Position numbers and translations under genes: made by a program
The notes under the pieces: model-generated
What the model saw: the letters and a program-made list of their open reading frames with translations, nothing else
Told to the model about the DNA's origin: nothing
Database searches by the model: none
Source: Sphingobacteriales bacterium
GTDB lineage: Bacteria > Bacteroidota > Bacteroidia > Sphingobacteriales > Sphingobacteriaceae
Assembly: GCA_015655115.1 (NCBI GenBank)
Contig: JAATFQ010000175.1
Coordinates: forward strand, 20,636 to 84,635
Reading direction: 5' to 3'
Length of the DNA stretch: 64,000 nucleotides
Part shown: in pieces, positions 54,948-64,000 of the stretch
Numbering within the stretch: position 1 is the stretch's first letter
Layout: every line of letters starts with the position of its first letter

Positions 54948-56822
54948 CTACTTTTTCGCGCTAAACAGCTGCACTATCTTGTGGAATATTTCACTATTCT
55001 GATAAGTACCAGTAAAGTCTTCTGAGTGTGGGCCATAAGCATACACTGGGACCATAATGTTAGTATGGTCGTTTGTACTGAATTCGCCTTGTATCCTTCC
55101 ATCGGCAGACGATGCTTCGAGTAGTGTTAATCCCCCGGTTTCATGGTCTGCTGTGATCAATACCAATGTTTCCCCGTCTTCATCTGCAAAGCGCAAAGCC
55201 TCAGCTACCATTTTATCAAAGTCATGCAGCTCTGTAACCACATATTTTAAGTCATTCGCATGTCCACCGTAATCAATCTGTGCACCTTCTGCCATCACAA
55301 AAAAGCCTTTTTTGTTTTGCGCTAAAAGCCGTATAGTCTGGTTTAGGGACTGTGTAAGCATGTCACCTCTGCCATCTTTTATGGGCCGTGTAGCAGTATC
55401 CGGCAGCAGCACAATTTGTTTTCCATGATCTTGCTGCTTGAATGCTGCAAGAGACTTACTTATGGTATATCCTTTATCTTCCAGTTTAGTCATCAGCTGC
55501 GCGTCAGTATTCTCAAAGAAACTTTTTTGGTTAGAGCCTACAAGGATATCTACGTGACTGTTCAGAAAGTCCGCCGCGATTAATTTGCTGAATGAGCGGT
55601 CGGTCTGGTGCGCATAAAACACCGCAGGTGTGGCATCGGTGATATCACCCGAGCTGATGATCCCATTTTTTAAGCCATAAGTCGCTAAAGTATCGGCCAG
55701 GTTAGTCCGTTTTTTATCATCGGTACCCATACCGATATAGCGGTTATTTGTTTTCTCGCCCATGGCAATAGCCGATCCTCCTGCTGCCGAATCTGTATTT
55801 CCGGAGTTTGCTGCTGCGGTTTGAGCAAAGCCGCTATGGCGCAGCATCGTTATATTCAGATTGCCATGGTTAGCAATCCAACCAGCATGGATCTGTGCCA
55901 GTCCCATGCCATCACCAATAAGGAGAATTACATTTTTAACTTTCCTGTTCTGCCCGTCTGATTTATAAGTAGGCGTATAAACTGGGTAAGGGACGGGGTT
56001 GGTATAGCTCAGCTTGTCCCTGTGCAGGTAGAAGTCGTGCATTTTCTCCGGCGCATCCGTATTGATCCAGTCTACTCCAAATTTTTCCAGTTCCACCCAG
56101 GTATTCGGGCTATCCTGTGTAGCCCAGAAGCGGAATGGTTTATTTTTCTGATGTGCAGCAGCAATTACCGCTTTTAATTTAAGCTCATCCGGTTTTGTAG
56201 GTGTCCCTTTACCATTCCAAACCGTATAGTTGCTCAGGTCATCGCTGATCATCGCTACCCTTTTCAGTTGGTCGGCAGTGTATCCCGTTGCCGGGCGGCC
56301 ATCAAAAGAGATAAAGTCAGGATAATCTTTAAAATCTGCCGGTGCCGGCATATCGCCGCTGATCACCAGGCGTATGGCATCGGGATTGGCACGCCAGTCG
56401 ACCATAGCCATATAAGGTTTCAGCTCTTTTAACAGTTGTGGCAGCACCTGCTGATGGTCTTCTTTAATATCAATCACCAGCTGCAATTTCAATCCTTGCT
56501 CTGTATAAGGACGGTTTCCATTTTTGAGGAACAATTGATATAGAGGCTCCAGGTATTTATTTACGAGCGTAAGCTGCGGATCGATCTCCCTGAGTTCATG
56601 CGCTACAAAAAGCTGTCCGTCTTTTAGAAAAACATCTGCTTCAATAGAGCCCATTTCAGCATAATAAGCCCTTAATAGCGGGATATTTTGCTTATAGTCA
56701 TTATGGCTATGCCCGCGGTTAAATGATAAAGGTTGTTGTGCCTGTACCTTTCCTGCGTAACAAAGCAGGGAAAAGGGGAGCAGCACTTTCATGGAACAAG
56801 ATAATAATTGTTTCTTCAGCAT
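54948..56822 (-). CDS. Secreted GDPD/PI-PLC-like phosphodiesterase fused to alkaline phosphatase
   Basis: N-terminal domain FNRGHSHNDYKQNIPLLRAYYAEMGSIEADVFLKDGQLFVAHE...GVDWINTDAPEKM; C-terminal NVILLIGDGMG, TDSAAGGSA, FFVMAEGAQIDYGGHAND, LITADHETGG. Confidence 0.9.
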   Translation of the reverse strand: MLKKQLLSCSMKVLLPFSLLCYAGKVQAQQPLSFNRGHSHNDYKQNIPLLRAYYAEMGSIEADVFLKDGQLFVAHELREIDPQLTLVNKYLEPLYQLFLKNGNRPYTEQGLKLQLVIDIKEDHQQVLPQLLKELKPYMAMVDWRANPDAIRLVISGDMPAPADFKDYPDFISFDGRPATGYTADQLKRVAMISDDLSNYTVWNGKGTPTKPDELKLKAVIAAAHQKNKPFRFWATQDSPNTWVELEKFGVDWINTDAPEKMHDFYLHRDKLSYTNPVPYPVYTPTYKSDGQNRKVKNVILLIGDGMGLAQIHAGWIANHGNLNITMLRHSGFAQTAAANSGNTDSAAGGSAIAMGEKTNNRYIGMGTDDKKRTNLADTLATYGLKNGIISSGDITDATPAVFYAHQTDRSFSKLIAADFLNSHVDILVGSNQKSFFENTDAQLMTKLEDKGYTISKSLAAFKQQDHGKQIVLLPDTATRPIKDGRGDMLTQSLNQTIRLLAQNKKGFFVMAEGAQIDYGGHANDLKYVVTELHDFDKMVAEALRFADEDGETLVLITADHETGGLTLLEASSADGRIQGEFSTNDHTNIMVPVYAYGPHSEDFTGTYQNSEIFHKIVQLFSAKK

Positions 56823-56891
56823 ATATTAAATTTAAAACGTCAGTCCCGCTATTTAAAGGGACTATTAAAAAGGGGACTGGCGCGATGAGGA

Positions 56892-58415
56892 TTACCAGCC
56901 GGCGTTTTGTGTAATTACACCGCCACTATTGTCAATTTCTTTCTGTGGTACTGCCCATACATCATGGACAAGCGGATTAAATTTCCTTGCAGGCCATACC
57001 ACTATACCACCAAACCCATGGGCAGGTATTGCATATGCAGCCTGCGCATCGCCCCAGCGTACCATATCGCGGTGCCTGTCGGCCCATTCACCTGCAAGCT
57101 CATTGCGTCGCTCCCGTTTAAGGTCGCTCAGGGACATCCCCGTTACCGCCGTCAGTTTCGCCCTCAGGCGGATTCTGTTCAGTGCAGCATCTCCTGCGCC
57201 AGCACCACGCAGCATAATTGCTGCTTCAGCTTTGATCAGTAAGACTTCTGCAAAACGCAACAGCGGAACATTCAGATCCGTAGTCGGATGGTCGCCATTC
57301 GGACTGATATGACTTCCCACAGGATCAGCAAAAGTAAAAGGGTCCATATATTTTCTAAACTGATAACCCGACAGGCTGTTTGCAGAGCTGTAAACCCTGT
57401 CCTCGCCAAAAAACATAAAGTGGTCGCCTGGTTTTAAGATGGTAGCCTCCCGGCGCACATCACCCGCCTGATAAGAGTCATATAACTCTTTTGTCGGCAT
57501 ATAATATCCCCAGCCATTGTATTTTCCCCATCCTTTATTTTCCAACATTACACCTGGAAGAATACTTCCCCAGCCACCTGCACCTTTAGGGGTAGACAAG
57601 GCAGACCAGATATATTCAGGCCCCCAGTTATTTGTTGCTTTAAACACATCGGCAAATTCAGGCATCAGGTCGCGCTTACCGAAATTAATTACCGAGTCGG
57701 CATATTTCTCAGCATTGTCATAATCCTTCTTATACAAGTAAACTTTAGATAACACTGCCCAGGCAGCAACCTTATGTGGTCTGCCGTAATCAGTAACTGC
57801 CAGTTCATCAAAATAAGGAAGGTGGCTTGCCGCCTGTTTTAATTCGCTAATGATATAATCATAGTTCATATCTACATTTGCTGCCCTCGGTGTAGGATTA
57901 GGGTCGTCCATATTTTCGCGGGTTACGATAGGTACACCTGCTTTCGCGTTCCCATAATTCCCTGCCAGCTGGAAGTACATATATCCGCTTGTAAAATAAG
58001 CCTCGCCCAGCAGACGGTTTTTCAGGGCGCCATCCATTTCTATAGCAGGCACATAACGGATCACGTCATTCGCCCTTTTGATGGTCGAATAGCGCATTTT
58101 CCATTGGTCTTCCGTATAGTCGCCGCCTATATAGGCAGAGTTAAAATCCCTCACATTATCACCCTGCGCCTTTACGCGGCCTGTAATCATATCATCACTG
58201 GCATTGATAAACCAGAAGAACCCGCGGCCGTAAAAATTTTCATTGTCATATAGCTCGTACATTGCATTTGCACCCTTCAGTGCGTCGCTGCTGGTTTTCC
58301 AGAAGTTTCCTTTTGAGGCAGCACCTTCAGGAGTAATGTCTAATTGTTTCTGGCAGGAGCTGATGGTTATAGTCGTTAAGCCAGCTATTAATAGGTAAAA
58401 TAAAGTCCTTTTCAT
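56892..58415 (-). CDS. SusD/RagB family nutrient-binding lipoprotein
   Basis: Lipobox ITISSCQKQ, KRANDVIRYVPAI, LLGEAYFTSGYMYFQLAGNYG, LRFAEVLLIKAEA, RRNELAGEWADRHRDMVRWG. Confidence 0.96.
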   Translation of the reverse strand: MKRTLFYLLIAGLTTITISSCQKQLDITPEGAASKGNFWKTSSDALKGANAMYELYDNENFYGRGFFWFINASDDMITGRVKAQGDNVRDFNSAYIGGDYTEDQWKMRYSTIKRANDVIRYVPAIEMDGALKNRLLGEAYFTSGYMYFQLAGNYGNAKAGVPIVTRENMDDPNPTPRAANVDMNYDYIISELKQAASHLPYFDELAVTDYGRPHKVAAWAVLSKVYLYKKDYDNAEKYADSVINFGKRDLMPEFADVFKATNNWGPEYIWSALSTPKGAGGWGSILPGVMLENKGWGKYNGWGYYMPTKELYDSYQAGDVRREATILKPGDHFMFFGEDRVYSSANSLSGYQFRKYMDPFTFADPVGSHISPNGDHPTTDLNVPLLRFAEVLLIKAEAAIMLRGAGAGDAALNRIRLRAKLTAVTGMSLSDLKRERRNELAGEWADRHRDMVRWGDAQAAYAIPAHGFGGIVVWPARKFNPLVHDVWAVPQKEIDNSGGVITQNAGW

Positions 58416-58441
58416 TTTGTGATTGTTAAAATAAATGCGAT

Positions 58442-61400
58442 TTAAAAATTCAGGCTTGCACCAAACAGGAAGGTCCTGGCTTGCGGATAGCGGCCCATAT
58501 CTACACCATACTGGTCCATACCCACCTCAGGGTCAAAGCCTTTATAATTGGTAATGGTAAACAGGTTATTTGAAGTAACAAACAAACGCAGGTTACTCAC
58601 CTTAACAGATTTCACTATACTTTTCGGAAAAGTATAACCCAGGGTTGCACTTTTTAACCTCATATAAGAGCCATTCTCAATATAAAAATCAGAGGTAGTG
58701 GTGAAGTTACCGTTTGAATCACTGGCCGAAATACGCGGTAATGTACTCCCGGTATTGGTAGGGCTCCATGCATCCAATACGCCCGACAGCAGGTTATAAT
58801 TCTGTCCGCTACCTGCATTCAGCCCTGTATATTTTAAAGCATTAAATAGTTTATTCCCTTGTACCCCCTGAGCAAAAATGTTCAGATCAAACCCTTTATA
58901 GCTTGCATTGAAGCTGATGCCATAAGAGAAATCGGGATAGGCACTCCCTTTAAATACACGGTCATTGTTGTCTATCTTGCCATCATTATTATGGTCTATA
59001 AAGCGGAAGTCGCCTGCTTTGGCATTAGGCTGGATCATACTACCAGCGGTATTTTTATAGTTCTGTGCTTCAGCATCACTCTGAAAAATGCCATTGGTTT
59101 CTACCACATAATAAGAATACAATGGCTGACCTACCTGCAGGCGTACCGGGGTCAGTGTACCACGGACGTTAAAGTCTACCGACTGACTGGTTAAGTTCGC
59201 TGGTAAAGAAATCAGCTTGTTTGTCATCTTAGTGAGGGATACATTTACGCTGTATTGAAATGCGGCTTCCGGTCTGTTGGTATAATTCAGTCCAATCTCA
59301 ATACCTTTATCTCTGGAAAGGCCTCCATTTTTCCATTGCCCGTCAACCCCTGTAGTGCCAGACAGCGGTTGATAAATCAACATATCTTTGGTGTCCTTAA
59401 TAAAATAATCGGCAACCAGCGTTAACCTGTTCTTCAGCACGCTAAAGTCAAGACCAAAGTTCGTTTGCTTAGATTTAGCCCATGTCAGGTCGGAATTTGA
59501 TAATACATTTTCATAATATCCAAGCAGCTGTGCAGGATCCTGCCCCATATAGATTGTACTTTTCAGCAAAGTCGGGCTCACTGCCGAGCTGCTCACACTT
59601 GCAAGGTTCCCTAAAACACCATAACTGCCCCTGATTTTCAGATTGCTGATCCAGTCGGCACTGCTCATGAAATCTTCCCTATTGATCACCCATCCTGCAG
59701 AAGCAGAACCATAATTAGCATACCTGTTTTGCGCCGCTACCAGAGAGCTACCATCTCTTCTGCCGATCAGTGAAAGCAGGTATTTACTTTTATAATCATA
59801 ATTGGCCCTCGTAAAGAAAGACGTCAGGGCAGTTTTAGACATATAGCTATCCGGCAAAAAGGCTGTAGACGCATTTACCATATAGCGGTACTGCGGCGAT
59901 TCATCGTCAAAACCCTGTGCATATACTGACGTTCCTTCGTTTTTGCTTTTCTGGAAAGAGAAACCGCCAATAACATTTAAGTGATGATTGCCAAATAACC
60001 TGTCATAAGTCAGTACCTGTTCCGCTAAAAGATCATTCGTGGTACTGGAAGATATGTTCAGCTGATTGAAATCGAAGATCTTACCAATCTCAGGAACCTT
60101 GGTCTGGAAGCTTTTACTATTGTTGAACTTCTTAGTAATAGAAAGGTTGGAGCGGAATTTCAAACCTTTTACCAGGTCGATTTCAGCATAGGGGTTAACT
60201 ACAATCGTATTTACAGGATTGCTCACATCCAGGCGCTTTAAATAAGCAACAGGGTTAATCACGTCACCATATGCGCCAGCATAGTCGACCGGCAAACCAG
60301 AGAAAGCGCCCGTAGAGGTATAAGGAGCAACACTTGAAGGATAAAAAATAGCCGACAAGATAGCGCCTGTATAACCACTTGTGGTATTTGCACCATTTCC
60401 ATTGGTGTAATCATAAAACAGATTCTCTCCAACTTTCATCCATGAATTGATGTGATGTTCAGAATTGATACGGAAATTATAACGGTTACTTGACGTATTC
60501 AGTAAGATACCTTCAGCCTTGCGGTAATTAAAACTGAGATAAAAGCTGGATTTATCATTTCCGCCGCTGATGCCTGCATTATAGTCCTGCACCATACCGG
60601 TCCTGAAGATCTCATCCACCCAGTCGGCTTGTGTAATCTGGCCTTCGGGATAGACGGCGGCATTAAAAGCGTCTTTTCTTGGCACCCCTGCATTGTCCGC
60701 TGCCAGGTTAGAAACGTCGGCAAATTCTTTAGCATTAAGTGCTTTAAGCTGCTTCCATGCCGATTGTACACCTACTTTAGCATCAAAAGTAATGCTGATC
60801 GGTTTATTGACACCTTTTTTTGTGGTTATCAGGATTACGCCGCCAGAAGCGCGTGCACCATAAATTGCTGCTGCACCATCTTTTAACACAGAGATAGATT
60901 CAATATCATTGGGGTTTAAAACAGGAGTGCCATTATATAAAGATCCGTCAATTACATACAGAGGACTCTCGCCATTGATACCGCCCTGACCGCGGATATT
61001 TACTTTCGGCGTTGCTGTAGGGTCGCCACTTTCTGTCACCACTACCACACCGGGTGCTTTTCCCTGTAAGATACTTCCTATATCATTTACAGATCTGGAG
61101 TTCAGCTGATCGAGTGCCACATCAGTTACAGCTCCAGAGATAGTAACTTTCTTCTGCGTTCCATAACCTACCACAACCACCTCGTTAAGCTGTGAGTTGT
61201 CCTCTTTCAGGACAATGTTTATTGCAGTACTTGCTGTTACTTTAACCTGCTGCGTTTTATAGCCGATCATAGAGAAGATCAGCATGGTATTTTCCGGCAC
61301 AGCGATGCTATACTTTCCATTTACATCAGTCGTAGTCCCTTTGCTGGTTCCCTCAATTTTAACAGATACCCCCGGCATGGCTACCCCTGCAGAGTCTTTT

Positions 61401-61801
61401 ACTGTTCCTGAAATCAGGAGATCTGCTTTTTTTGGTGCTTCGGGGGCCTTCTTTACAATCACATAGTCACCTTTCTCCATATAGGTAAACCCAAGCTTAG
61501 AGAGTACCCGGGTTACTTTTTCATTGCTGAAAGTCTGGTTCAGTGCATGCTTATTTGCTGCCAGCAGATCCTGGTTATATACAAAGCGGAGGCCTGTTTT
61601 AGCTTCAATTTCTTTCAGCAGGGCTTGCTGCGATTTGTTTCTGCTTACTGTAACAGACACCGTAACCTGATCTAATTTCTGCGCCATAGTTGACGACGCA
61701 TATAAGGTTCCGAAAAAGGTGCAAACGATAGAAAATATTAATAATGAATATTTCATGGCTTTATAAAGAGCTGATAACCTCTTATATGAGGATGTTTTCA
61801 T
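58442..61801 (-). CDS. SusC/RagA TonB-dependent transporter with STN domain
   Basis: STN (TGLRFVYNQDLLAANKHALNQTFSNEKVTRVLSKLG), CarboxypepD_reg (ISGTVKDSAGVAMPGVSVKIEGTSKGTTTDVNGKYSI), plug NEVVVVGYGTQKK. Confidence 0.97.
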   Translation of the reverse strand: MKTSSYKRLSALYKAMKYSLLIFSIVCTFFGTLYASSTMAQKLDQVTVSVTVSRNKSQQALLKEIEAKTGLRFVYNQDLLAANKHALNQTFSNEKVTRVLSKLGFTYMEKGDYVIVKKAPEAPKKADLLISGTVKDSAGVAMPGVSVKIEGTSKGTTTDVNGKYSIAVPENTMLIFSMIGYKTQQVKVTASTAINIVLKEDNSQLNEVVVVGYGTQKKVTISGAVTDVALDQLNSRSVNDIGSILQGKAPGVVVVTESGDPTATPKVNIRGQGGINGESPLYVIDGSLYNGTPVLNPNDIESISVLKDGAAAIYGARASGGVILITTKKGVNKPISITFDAKVGVQSAWKQLKALNAKEFADVSNLAADNAGVPRKDAFNAAVYPEGQITQADWVDEIFRTGMVQDYNAGISGGNDKSSFYLSFNYRKAEGILLNTSSNRYNFRINSEHHINSWMKVGENLFYDYTNGNGANTTSGYTGAILSAIFYPSSVAPYTSTGAFSGLPVDYAGAYGDVINPVAYLKRLDVSNPVNTIVVNPYAEIDLVKGLKFRSNLSITKKFNNSKSFQTKVPEIGKIFDFNQLNISSSTTNDLLAEQVLTYDRLFGNHHLNVIGGFSFQKSKNEGTSVYAQGFDDESPQYRYMVNASTAFLPDSYMSKTALTSFFTRANYDYKSKYLLSLIGRRDGSSLVAAQNRYANYGSASAGWVINREDFMSSADWISNLKIRGSYGVLGNLASVSSSAVSPTLLKSTIYMGQDPAQLLGYYENVLSNSDLTWAKSKQTNFGLDFSVLKNRLTLVADYFIKDTKDMLIYQPLSGTTGVDGQWKNGGLSRDKGIEIGLNYTNRPEAAFQYSVNVSLTKMTNKLISLPANLTSQSVDFNVRGTLTPVRLQVGQPLYSYYVVETNGIFQSDAEAQNYKNTAGSMIQPNAKAGDFRFIDHNNDGKIDNNDRVFKGSAYPDFSYGISFNASYKGFDLNIFAQGVQGNKLFNALKYTGLNAGSGQNYNLLSGVLDAWSPTNTGSTLPRISASDSNGNFTTTSDFYIENGSYMRLKSATLGYTFPKSIVKSVKVSNLRLFVTSNNLFTITNYKGFDPEVGMDQYGVDMGRYPQARTFLFGASLNF

Positions 61802-61889
61802 ATTTTTACTTTGTTTATGGCATTAATGAATGTTATTAAATAAAATCCGGATAGGGTAATTGGCGTTAAACATCCGGGTTCAGAATTTT

Positions 61890-61916
61890 GCCGGTACTGA
61901 TCTGATCAGTGCCGGC
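61890..61916. repeat. Near-perfect hairpin between fecR-like and susC-like genes
   Basis: gccggtactgatc / gatcagtgccggc (13 bp, one G-U) followed on + by a T-tract. Confidence 0.6.
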
Positions 61917-61941
61917 TCTTTTTTTGGTAGCTGTTAAATGA

Positions 61942-62889
61942 TCATATCTTATATATTTTAAAGGATTTATGGTCAGAACTCGTTGTAAATTTCAGGTTGT
62001 AAAGGCTGCAGATCACACCGATTATTTCTTCCGGTGCTTCTCTGCTATTGAATGTTGCTGTGCAACCCTGGTTCCCTAGTACAAGGGGGCGTAAGTCAAT
62101 CTTTATTGTGTAGATATATTCAAGTTCATGTAGTGCTTGTTTTAAGGTGATACCTTCAAAAGCGATTTGCATATCTGCTGCAGGGATCTGGCTGATCACG
62201 GCCGACTGGAGTTTTCTGTTGTAGGTAATTTGCTCGCCTTTAATCAGTCTGCCGAATACCTGTTTTTTATTGCCGACGGCAACCTTTCCTGTATTCACAG
62301 CAATATTCAATTCACCTGAAGCCTTGAAGGCACGGATATGAAAAGATGTCCCCAATACCTGGGTATACAGCTGGTCAGGAAGGCATACTTTAAAAGGGCG
62401 TCTTTCATCATGGGCAATTTTAAAAAATGCTTCTCCTTCTACCAGTGTTATTTCGCGTGATCCTGCACTGAATTTTACAGGATATGTAATGCGGCTCAGG
62501 GCACTCAGCGTAATTTCAGAGCCATCACTTAATACAATTGTCTTTTTGGCTCCTGCTTTAGTGCAGAATGTTAATTGAGGGACTTGCGAATGTGCTGTTG
62601 CTGCCTGCCGCCTAAGCTGACGGTAGCCGATGCCAATACTGCAGATCACCAGAATGGCTGCGGCCGTGCGCAGCAGATTATGGCGACTGAGCGAAAATAC
62701 CTGCGGATACAGGTGCTGGCGGATGCGGGCTAACATGCGCTGGCCGATGATGATCTTCTGCTCCTTTTCAGGCACTGGGTTATTCTCAAAGCCATCATAC
62801 CAGTTTTCTACCAGTTTTACTTCTTCCGGAGTTGCCCTGGCATTTAAATATTTCCCCAGCAGTTGTTCTGCTCTTTTTTTATCGTCCAT
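61942..62889 (-). CDS. FecR-family anti-sigma factor
   Basis: Cytoplasmic N-terminus, single TM, FecR core (KTIVLSDGSEITLSALSRITYPVKF...REITLVEGEAFFKIAHDERRPFKV), C-terminal STN/DUF4974-like. Confidence 0.95.
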   Translation of the reverse strand: MDDKKRAEQLLGKYLNARATPEEVKLVENWYDGFENNPVPEKEQKIIIGQRMLARIRQHLYPQVFSLSRHNLLRTAAAILVICSIGIGYRQLRRQAATAHSQVPQLTFCTKAGAKKTIVLSDGSEITLSALSRITYPVKFSAGSREITLVEGEAFFKIAHDERRPFKVCLPDQLYTQVLGTSFHIRAFKASGELNIAVNTGKVAVGNKKQVFGRLIKGEQITYNRKLQSAVISQIPAADMQIAFEGITLKQALHELEYIYTIKIDLRPLVLGNQGCTATFNSREAPEEIIGVICSLYNLKFTTSSDHKSFKIYKI

Positions 62890-62957
62890 CTATATACCTG
62901 TCAGCTAAAGCAGCAACACGTACCGGGTGGGGGTGTTAACCTTCTGTTACCTTTATG

Positions 62958-63500
62958 TTAAAAGAATAGTACTGTTAAGTAGGCCAGCCGCTTTCTGATG
63001 ATTTTCAGTGCAGCGCTGAGTTGGTTTTTTACCGTTTGTATAGACAAGTTCAGTTCTGCCGAGATCTCATCATTAGATTTCTCCTGTTTTCTGCTCATGG
63101 TAAATATCAATCCCATTCTTTCGGGAAGAACGGCGATAGCTTCGTCGAGCTCCTGACGGATTTCGTTCACTATTAGCTGATTGGTAGGGTATAAGGATGA
63201 TATACCGCCTGTTAGGGCTTTAAAATCCTCCTTGTACCTTTCACTGGTTACGTTAGCTTTAAAATAATTGATTACCCTGTATTTTACTGCACCCAGAAGG
63301 TAGGCCATTAAAGATTCCTGTATTTCCAGGGTATGTCGCTTTTCCCAAAGGGAGATAAAAATATCCTGCGTAATATCCTGTGCAATAACTTCATCACCCA
63401 CACGCTTGAAAGCTGTATCAAATACCTGCTCCCAATAGGTTTGATAAATAATTTCCATTGCTGCTTTTTCGTCCTGTTTCAGGGAAGCTATCAGATCCAT
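62958..63500 (-). CDS. ECF RNA polymerase sigma factor (FecI-like)
   Basis: IIYQTYWEQVFDTAFKRVGDEVIAQDITQDIFISLWEKR; region 4 ISAELNLSIQTVKNQLSAALKIIRKRL. Confidence 0.95.
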   Translation of the reverse strand: MDLIASLKQDEKAAMEIIYQTYWEQVFDTAFKRVGDEVIAQDITQDIFISLWEKRHTLEIQESLMAYLLGAVKYRVINYFKANVTSERYKEDFKALTGGISSLYPTNQLIVNEIRQELDEAIAVLPERMGLIFTMSRKQEKSNDEISAELNLSIQTVKNQLSAALKIIRKRLAYLTVLFF

Positions 63501-63733
63501 AACAGTAGTTTGAAATTTATTTAGGTATTTCTTTGCTACAAAGTTAGGAGGCTTATATTATCTTAATATTATGATGTTAAAACGTTTAATCAGCAGTACC
63601 TGGTTTGTTGACAGGTCCGGATGTATAGTTACATCCGGACTTCAGCACTAATTGCTATTCTTTTGAAATGGTTTTAGTGATAACCGTATTTGTTTGTGGG
63701 TACCAGTACTTATTCGCAAGTAACAGCACGACT

Positions 63734-64000
63734 TTAGTGGTAACTCTGCTCTTTAATCCTTGGTGAAACGATCAGAAAAATGACAATAACAAGTGTCATC
63801 AGACCTATAAAAAACCAGTAATACAAGGCTCCATTTAATGATGCAAAGAAACCGTTATTGGAAATACTGCGGTTGATGAATGCCGTAAAAATATTCCCTA
63901 CTGCGATGGTTAATAACCATATTGCACCCATCGTACTTTTCATTGATTTAGGAGCCTGTGTATAGGCATATTCCAGGCAGGTTACGGATACCATCACCTC
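63734..64000 (-). CDS. POT-family (proton-dependent oligopeptide) MFS transporter, partial
   Basis: EVMVSVTCLEYAYTQAPKSMKSTMGAIWLLTIAVGN; frame is open through the window edge. Confidence 0.9.
   Translation of the reverse strand, partial: EVMVSVTCLEYAYTQAPKSMKSTMGAIWLLTIAVGNIFTAFINRSISNNGFFASLNGALYYWFFIGLMTLVIVIFLIVSPRIKEQSYH

Follow-up and report, generated by a model that had tools for sequence, protein, structure and literature searches.

A sigma/FecR-associated SusCD cassette orthologous to Flavobacterium johnsoniae PUSII and probably serving organophosphate use

The window analyzed in this study is a stretch of 64,000 nucleotides from a Sphingobacteriales bacterium (contig JAATFQ010000175.1). 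It contains a five-gene cassette encoding an extracytoplasmic function (ECF) sigma factor, a FecR-like protein, a SusC/SusD pair (SusCD) and a phosphatase fusion protein. All positions are given in window coordinates, and the cassette lies on the minus strand. A preliminary description of the DNA had proposed these co-oriented genes, including an STN domain in SusC, and assigned them to organophosphate capture. The five open reading frames (ORFs) were found where that description had placed them, in the order sigma-FecR-SusC-SusD-fusion, and domain searches bore out each assignment, the STN domain by way of a profile of orthologues. The features are:

62958..63500, minus strand: FecI-like ECF sigma factor, 180 amino acids (TIGR02985, Bacteroidota family 1, 137.6 bits, above cut-off)
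61942..62889, minus strand: FecR-like anti-sigma factor, 315 amino acids (PF04773, E 1.3e-17; PF16344, FecR_C, E 1.3e-7)
58442..61801, minus strand: SusC/RagA TonB-dependent transporter, 1119 amino acids, with an N-terminal STN domain at about residues 40-120 (TIGR04056; STN via the orthologue profile)
56892..58415, minus strand: SusD-like surface lipoprotein, 507 amino acids (PF07980 and PF14322, SusD_RagB; lipobox ISSC read from the sequence)
54948..56822, minus strand: predicted bifunctional fusion, 624 amino acids, consisting of a signal peptide, a TIM barrel resembling glycerophosphodiester phosphodiesterases (GDPD-like) and a PhoA-family alkaline phosphatase; orthologue of F. johnsoniae PhoA1 (Fjoh_3249)
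55971..56726, minus strand: GDPD-like domain, residues 33-284 (residue conservation, GDPD alignment, fold matches)
54951..55952, minus strand: alkaline phosphatase domain, about residues 291-624 (residue conservation; Foldseek match to TAB5)
63539..63572, minus strand: promoter element of the sigma gene, ATAATATTAAGATAATAT-N8-TAACTTTG (cross-genome conservation; Bacteroidota -7 box TAnnTTTG)
61890..61916, minus strand: hairpin between fecR and susC (-16.7 kcal/mol; paired changes in related Pedobacter-type cassettes)

The intergenic gaps were 26-69 bp along susC-susD-fusion, 68 bp between the sigma gene and fecR, and 140 bp between fecR and susC; the five genes have the architecture of an operon. 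SusC scored 845.8 bits against TIGR04056 (cut-off 368.25), and its plug (PF07715) and a carboxypeptidase-regulatory-like domain (PF13715) were also matched. In agreement with the preliminary description, domain searches detected no glycoside hydrolase or other carbohydrate-active enzyme (CAZyme) within the cassette.

Domain searches and structure prediction of the fusion ORF (54948..56822) confirmed a PhoA-family phosphatase and, through orthologues and fold, a GDPD-like N-terminal domain (N-domain). The borders proposed for the two domains (about residues 30-285, and from about residue 295) were correct. Alk_phosphatase (PF00245) was matched at residues 296-567 (E 1.2e-45), and the full-length model (pLDDT 94.7) had the TAB5 alkaline phosphatase as its best match in the PDB (Foldseek E 9.9e-33, target TM 0.90). 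The catalytic serine and arginine, the two zinc sites and the magnesium site of PhoA alkaline phosphatase (PF00245) are all kept in the fusion. Among 83 full-length fusions drawn from several families, D304, S345 (the nucleophile), T398, R409, E512, D517, H521, H560 and H586 were invariant, and D559 was conserved at 0.99. The F. johnsoniae orthologue, PhoA1, restored phosphomonoesterase activity on a chromogenic monoester in a Pseudomonas phoX mutant (PMC8812569).

At its N-terminus the fusion has what reads like a type I signal peptide (…GKVQA/QQ), and the protein is therefore expected to be periplasmic. The domain that follows scored below the Pfam cut-offs in the window protein, both for GDPD_2 (PF13653, 21.7 against 27 bits) and for GDPD (PF03009, 15.6 against 23.6 bits), and given these scores it is classed as GDPD-like and not as a GDPD. 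Among 46 orthologous N-domains, GDPD_2 was matched in 42 (E<=0.001) and GDPD in 11, and the best PDB matches of the AlphaFold2 model of the domain (pLDDT 94.6) were GDPDs and GDPD-like phospholipases D. The N-domain has its catalytic residues: H38, H40, N41, D42, E61, D63, H75, K120, R231, T255 and D256 were invariant in the same 83 fusions, with E61/D63 and H75 aligning with the ExD metal ligands and the second histidine of solved GDPDs (including 2pz0). H40 is read as the putative counterpart of the first GDPD histidine from its 8-residue spacing to P48, as in HRGxxxxxP, an assignment made by spacing and not by structural superposition. For the two-step phosphodiester chemistry put forward earlier, the residues are thus intact and the monoesterase step has a published precedent in the orthologue (PMC8812569), while the diesterase step is predicted.

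These residues also bear on the possibility that the SusCD imports phosphomonoesters, such as sugar phosphates or inositol phosphates, with the GDPD-like domain being a relic or serving in binding only. The weak Pfam scores and the phytase-like genes found downstream in some Pedobacter would agree with this, as would the fact that PhoA1 has been proven for monoesterase activity only (PMC8812569). However, a relic would not keep H40, E61, D63, H75 and K120 invariant in 83 diverse fusions with domain identities down to 34%, and one orthologous SusCD is paired with a GDPD-GDPD protein that has no phosphatase domain, making phosphomonoester import rather improbable.

Full-length fusions were present in 95 of the 251 genomes sampled from the window's family; among 300 Flavobacterium genomes, 63 had one. 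The five-gene order recurred in Pedobacter, Sphingobacterium, Mucilaginibacter, Chitinophaga and Flavobacterium, and the fusion domains were 75-83% identical to those of the nearest named records, from Pedobacter sp. PAMC26386 and P. cryoconitis, which points to Pedobacter as the probable genus. Chryseobacterium carried orthologous SusC (51-53% identical), SusD (58-60%) and fusion genes without FecIR, which was either lost or never present, and its SusC had no STN domain.

A search of the 251 family genomes for orthologues of the window SusD, made irrespective of the fusion, found them in 62. The fusion was adjacent in 50 of these, and in 10 of the remaining 12 it was encoded elsewhere in the genome. 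Co-occurrence therefore amounted to 60 of 62 genomes, compared with 35 of the 189 genomes lacking the SusD orthologue (Fisher p 3e-30, not corrected for ancestry). Among the genes examined beside the 12 fusion-less SusCDs there was no glycan enzyme; a GDPD-GDPD protein was found at one locus, a PI-PLC-X protein at one, and nothing notable at the others. Metallophos, phytase-like, PI-PLC-X or PhoX genes lay inside or beside other cassettes. The partner replacements of the fusion are other phosphodiesterases, and no glycan enzyme is among them. At L307 (6447-7991, minus strand), the gene following an orthologous SusCD encodes a 515-amino-acid protein with the same GDPD-like N-domain joined to a canonical GDPD (PF03009) and no phosphatase domain.

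Most SusCD systems are devoted to glycans or peptides. On that general ground the window locus might be a glycan or peptide importer, whose phosphatase merely trims phosphate substituents from the oligomer taken up, and a few orthologous loci have one-off glycoside hydrolase-like genes (NAGLU, alpha-L-fucosidase) within a few genes. However, no glycan enzyme recurs beside the cassette, the recurring flanks being phosphoesterases or unrelated genes, and in F. johnsoniae the orthologue is phosphate-responsive (PMC8115612). The view that glycans are the normal cargo of homologous SusCDs was rejected, since the SusD orthologues track the fusion and the fusion-less loci have no adjoining glycan enzymes; glycan or peptide import is accordingly very improbable. 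Although fusions and SusCDs each also occur without the other, it is scarcely credible that fusion and transporter adjoin by chance or old synteny and work separately, because the position immediately upstream of the fusion is taken by several SusCD types, depending on the lineage, and the presence of the SusD orthologue and of the fusion is correlated across genomes.

The same five genes were found at 3.88 Mb in genome L221, which we take to be that of F. johnsoniae UW101, in an order that fits the PUSII locus tags. Identities between the window and L221 were 46 and 49% for the two domains of the fusion, 50% for SusD, 42% for SusC, 26% for FecR and 29% for the sigma factor. PUSII comprises PhoA1 (Fjoh_3249, PF00245 and PF13653), PusD2 (Fjoh_3250), PusC2 (Fjoh_3251) and a FecR-like protein (Fjoh_3252), which were strongly induced under phosphate depletion (log2 values of 7.4, 8.9, 9.0 and 9.9, respectively; Lidbury et al. 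2020, PMC8115612). In that paper it was already proposed that PhoA1, through its extra domain, reaches phosphodiesters as well (PMC8115612). The two PUSII papers disagree on which PhoA bears PF13653, Fjoh_3249 (2020, PMC8115612) or fjoh_3187 (2022 table, PMC8812569); the L221 cassette supports Fjoh_3249. A literature search for later work on the GDPD-PhoA fusion found nothing useful.

For the window SusC, Pfam gave no STN match at E<=1. A profile of 16 orthologous SusC N-termini matched PDB 2a02 (labelled as the ferric-pseudobactin 358 receptor, signalling domain; E 2.4e-6), and 9 members of this set matched the STN family itself (PF07660). In 110 distinct fusion-adjacent SusCs, STN and FecR were both present in 70 cases and both absent in 32, with FecR only in 8 and STN only in none, a tally not corrected for ancestry. 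The 8 exceptions led to rejection of the rule that FecR always implies STN. The joint appearance and disappearance of the two supports the trans-envelope signalling by FecIR and STN that had been proposed, the signal itself being predicted. Belliella and some Flavobacterium (L208, L231-L235) have, upstream of SusC and replacing FecIR, a regulator that combines Reg_prop propellers with an AraC-type helix-turn-helix.

The promoter box of the sigma gene consists of a conserved 18-bp AT-rich block followed by TAnnTTTG. With up to 3 mismatches allowed, this pattern was matched just once in each of 6 genomes, always upstream of the cassette. Identity of the block as a Pho box was considered, its 11-bp spacing being Pho-box-like, but was not adopted given the single match per genome at the cassette. 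PhoX was absent from 14 related genomes and pst-like matches were weak, so there was no training set for a Pho box, and a literature search for a Flavobacterium Pho box found nothing useful. A box confined to the cassette in these 6 genomes would fit PhoB, but equally autoregulation or a dedicated activator. Flavobacterium cassettes carry another conserved block, ATTAATGTAAACGTAACC. Further upstream in the window, and in the same orientation, lies the end of a POT-family transporter gene (63735-64000, minus strand; weak PTR2 match), which is probably unrelated.

The inner stem of the fecR-susC hairpin was paired in 98.8% of cells across 16 related cassettes, a percentage biased upwards because the sequences were picked for having the hairpin, and paired changes were seen at 3 of 5 positions. 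The hairpin is a possible site of processing, stability control or attenuation.

The evidence as a whole argues strongly that the cassette is a PUSII orthologue, a SusCD operon under ECF-sigma/FecR control that serves organophosphate use. In the proposed mechanism, the SusD lipoprotein would capture a small molecule bearing a phosphodiester, and TonB-driven SusC would carry it into the periplasm. There the GDPD-like domain, to judge from its intact catalytic residues, may cut the diester to a phosphomonoester, from which the fused alkaline phosphatase would free phosphate, as its F. johnsoniae orthologue does from a chromogenic monoester; the cell would gain phosphate and an alcohol such as glycerol. 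The architecture further suggests that ligand-loaded SusC would act through STN on FecR, freeing the sigma factor and boosting the operon. Glycerophosphodiesters appear to be the likeliest substrate class, because the enzyme replacements are GDPD and PI-PLC proteins. It is conceivable, but unlikely, that the main switch is the sensing of one particular phosphodiester at the outer membrane via STN-FecR rather than phosphate starvation alone, with the hairpin setting the regulator:transporter ratio and one polypeptide channelling diester to phosphate at two coupled sites.

Several observations weigh against organophosphate use under PUSII-like control. The sigma factor and FecR share only 29% and 26% identity with their F. 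johnsoniae counterparts, phosphate control of the window operon would follow from orthology alone, and in the 6 genomes no Pho box was demonstrated and the promoter box did not recur at other loci. Eleven orthologous SusCD operons have no adjoining fusion, many fusions have no adjacent SusCD, and 8 cassettes combine sigma and FecR genes with a SusC lacking STN (L073-L077, L098, L100, L173). The literature searched held no assay of N-domain diesterase activity or glycerophosphodiester hydrolysis. In F. johnsoniae, a phoA1 phoA2 double mutant lost only part of the inducible monoesterase activity, and the authors did not regard PhoA1 as essential for scavenging monoesters (PMC8812569).

The assignment to organophosphate rather than glycan use is nevertheless well supported, by a SusCD that tracks the fusion, by neighbours and replacements that are phosphoesterases, and by phosphate induction of the syntenic PUSII (PMC8115612). 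It is not new, as PUSII, its regulation and its proposed substrate class have already been published. The present analysis adds its broad conservation, the STN-FecR coupling, the SusD-centred test, the phosphodiesterase partner swaps, the cassette-specific promoter box and the covarying fecR-susC hairpin. Bacteroidota play a major part in recycling organic phosphorus in soil, and Flavobacterium often has no usual high-affinity phosphate transporter (PMC8115612). That PUSII is conserved over several families, and that its SusCD is linked with phosphodiesterases rather than glycan enzymes, reinforces the argument for SusCD import beyond sugars and peptides. In addition, the fusion represents a definite two-activity enzyme open to testing, its diesterase half being predicted.

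Compared with known systems, the phosphatase shares the catalytic-domain fold and active-site residues of TAB5-type compact alkaline phosphatases (PDB 2iuc/2w5v), but sits behind a GDPD-like domain and has an aspartate where TAB5 has His135. The N-domain resembles bacterial GDPDs (PDB 2pz0, 4r7o, 3no3) in its TIM barrel and in the aligned metal pair and second histidine, whereas it has HSHNDY for HRG, is sub-threshold in Pfam and is joined to a phosphatase. As in FecI/FecR/FecA-type signalling with an STN-bearing SusC, the cassette combines ECF sigma factor, FecR and STN, with STN occurring only alongside FecR; unlike in those systems, the predicted cargo is an organophosphate and not ferric citrate or a glycan. 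The window locus differs from PUSII in its genus, its diverged sigma factor and FecR (26-29%) and its conserved promoter box, and phosphate induction is known from F. johnsoniae. The two share all five genes and their order (L221), a PhoA with an extra GDPD_2-type domain adjoining SusCD, the presence of FecR and the lack of a CAZyme, and on these sequence characters the window locus is classified as a Pedobacter-type member of PUSII.

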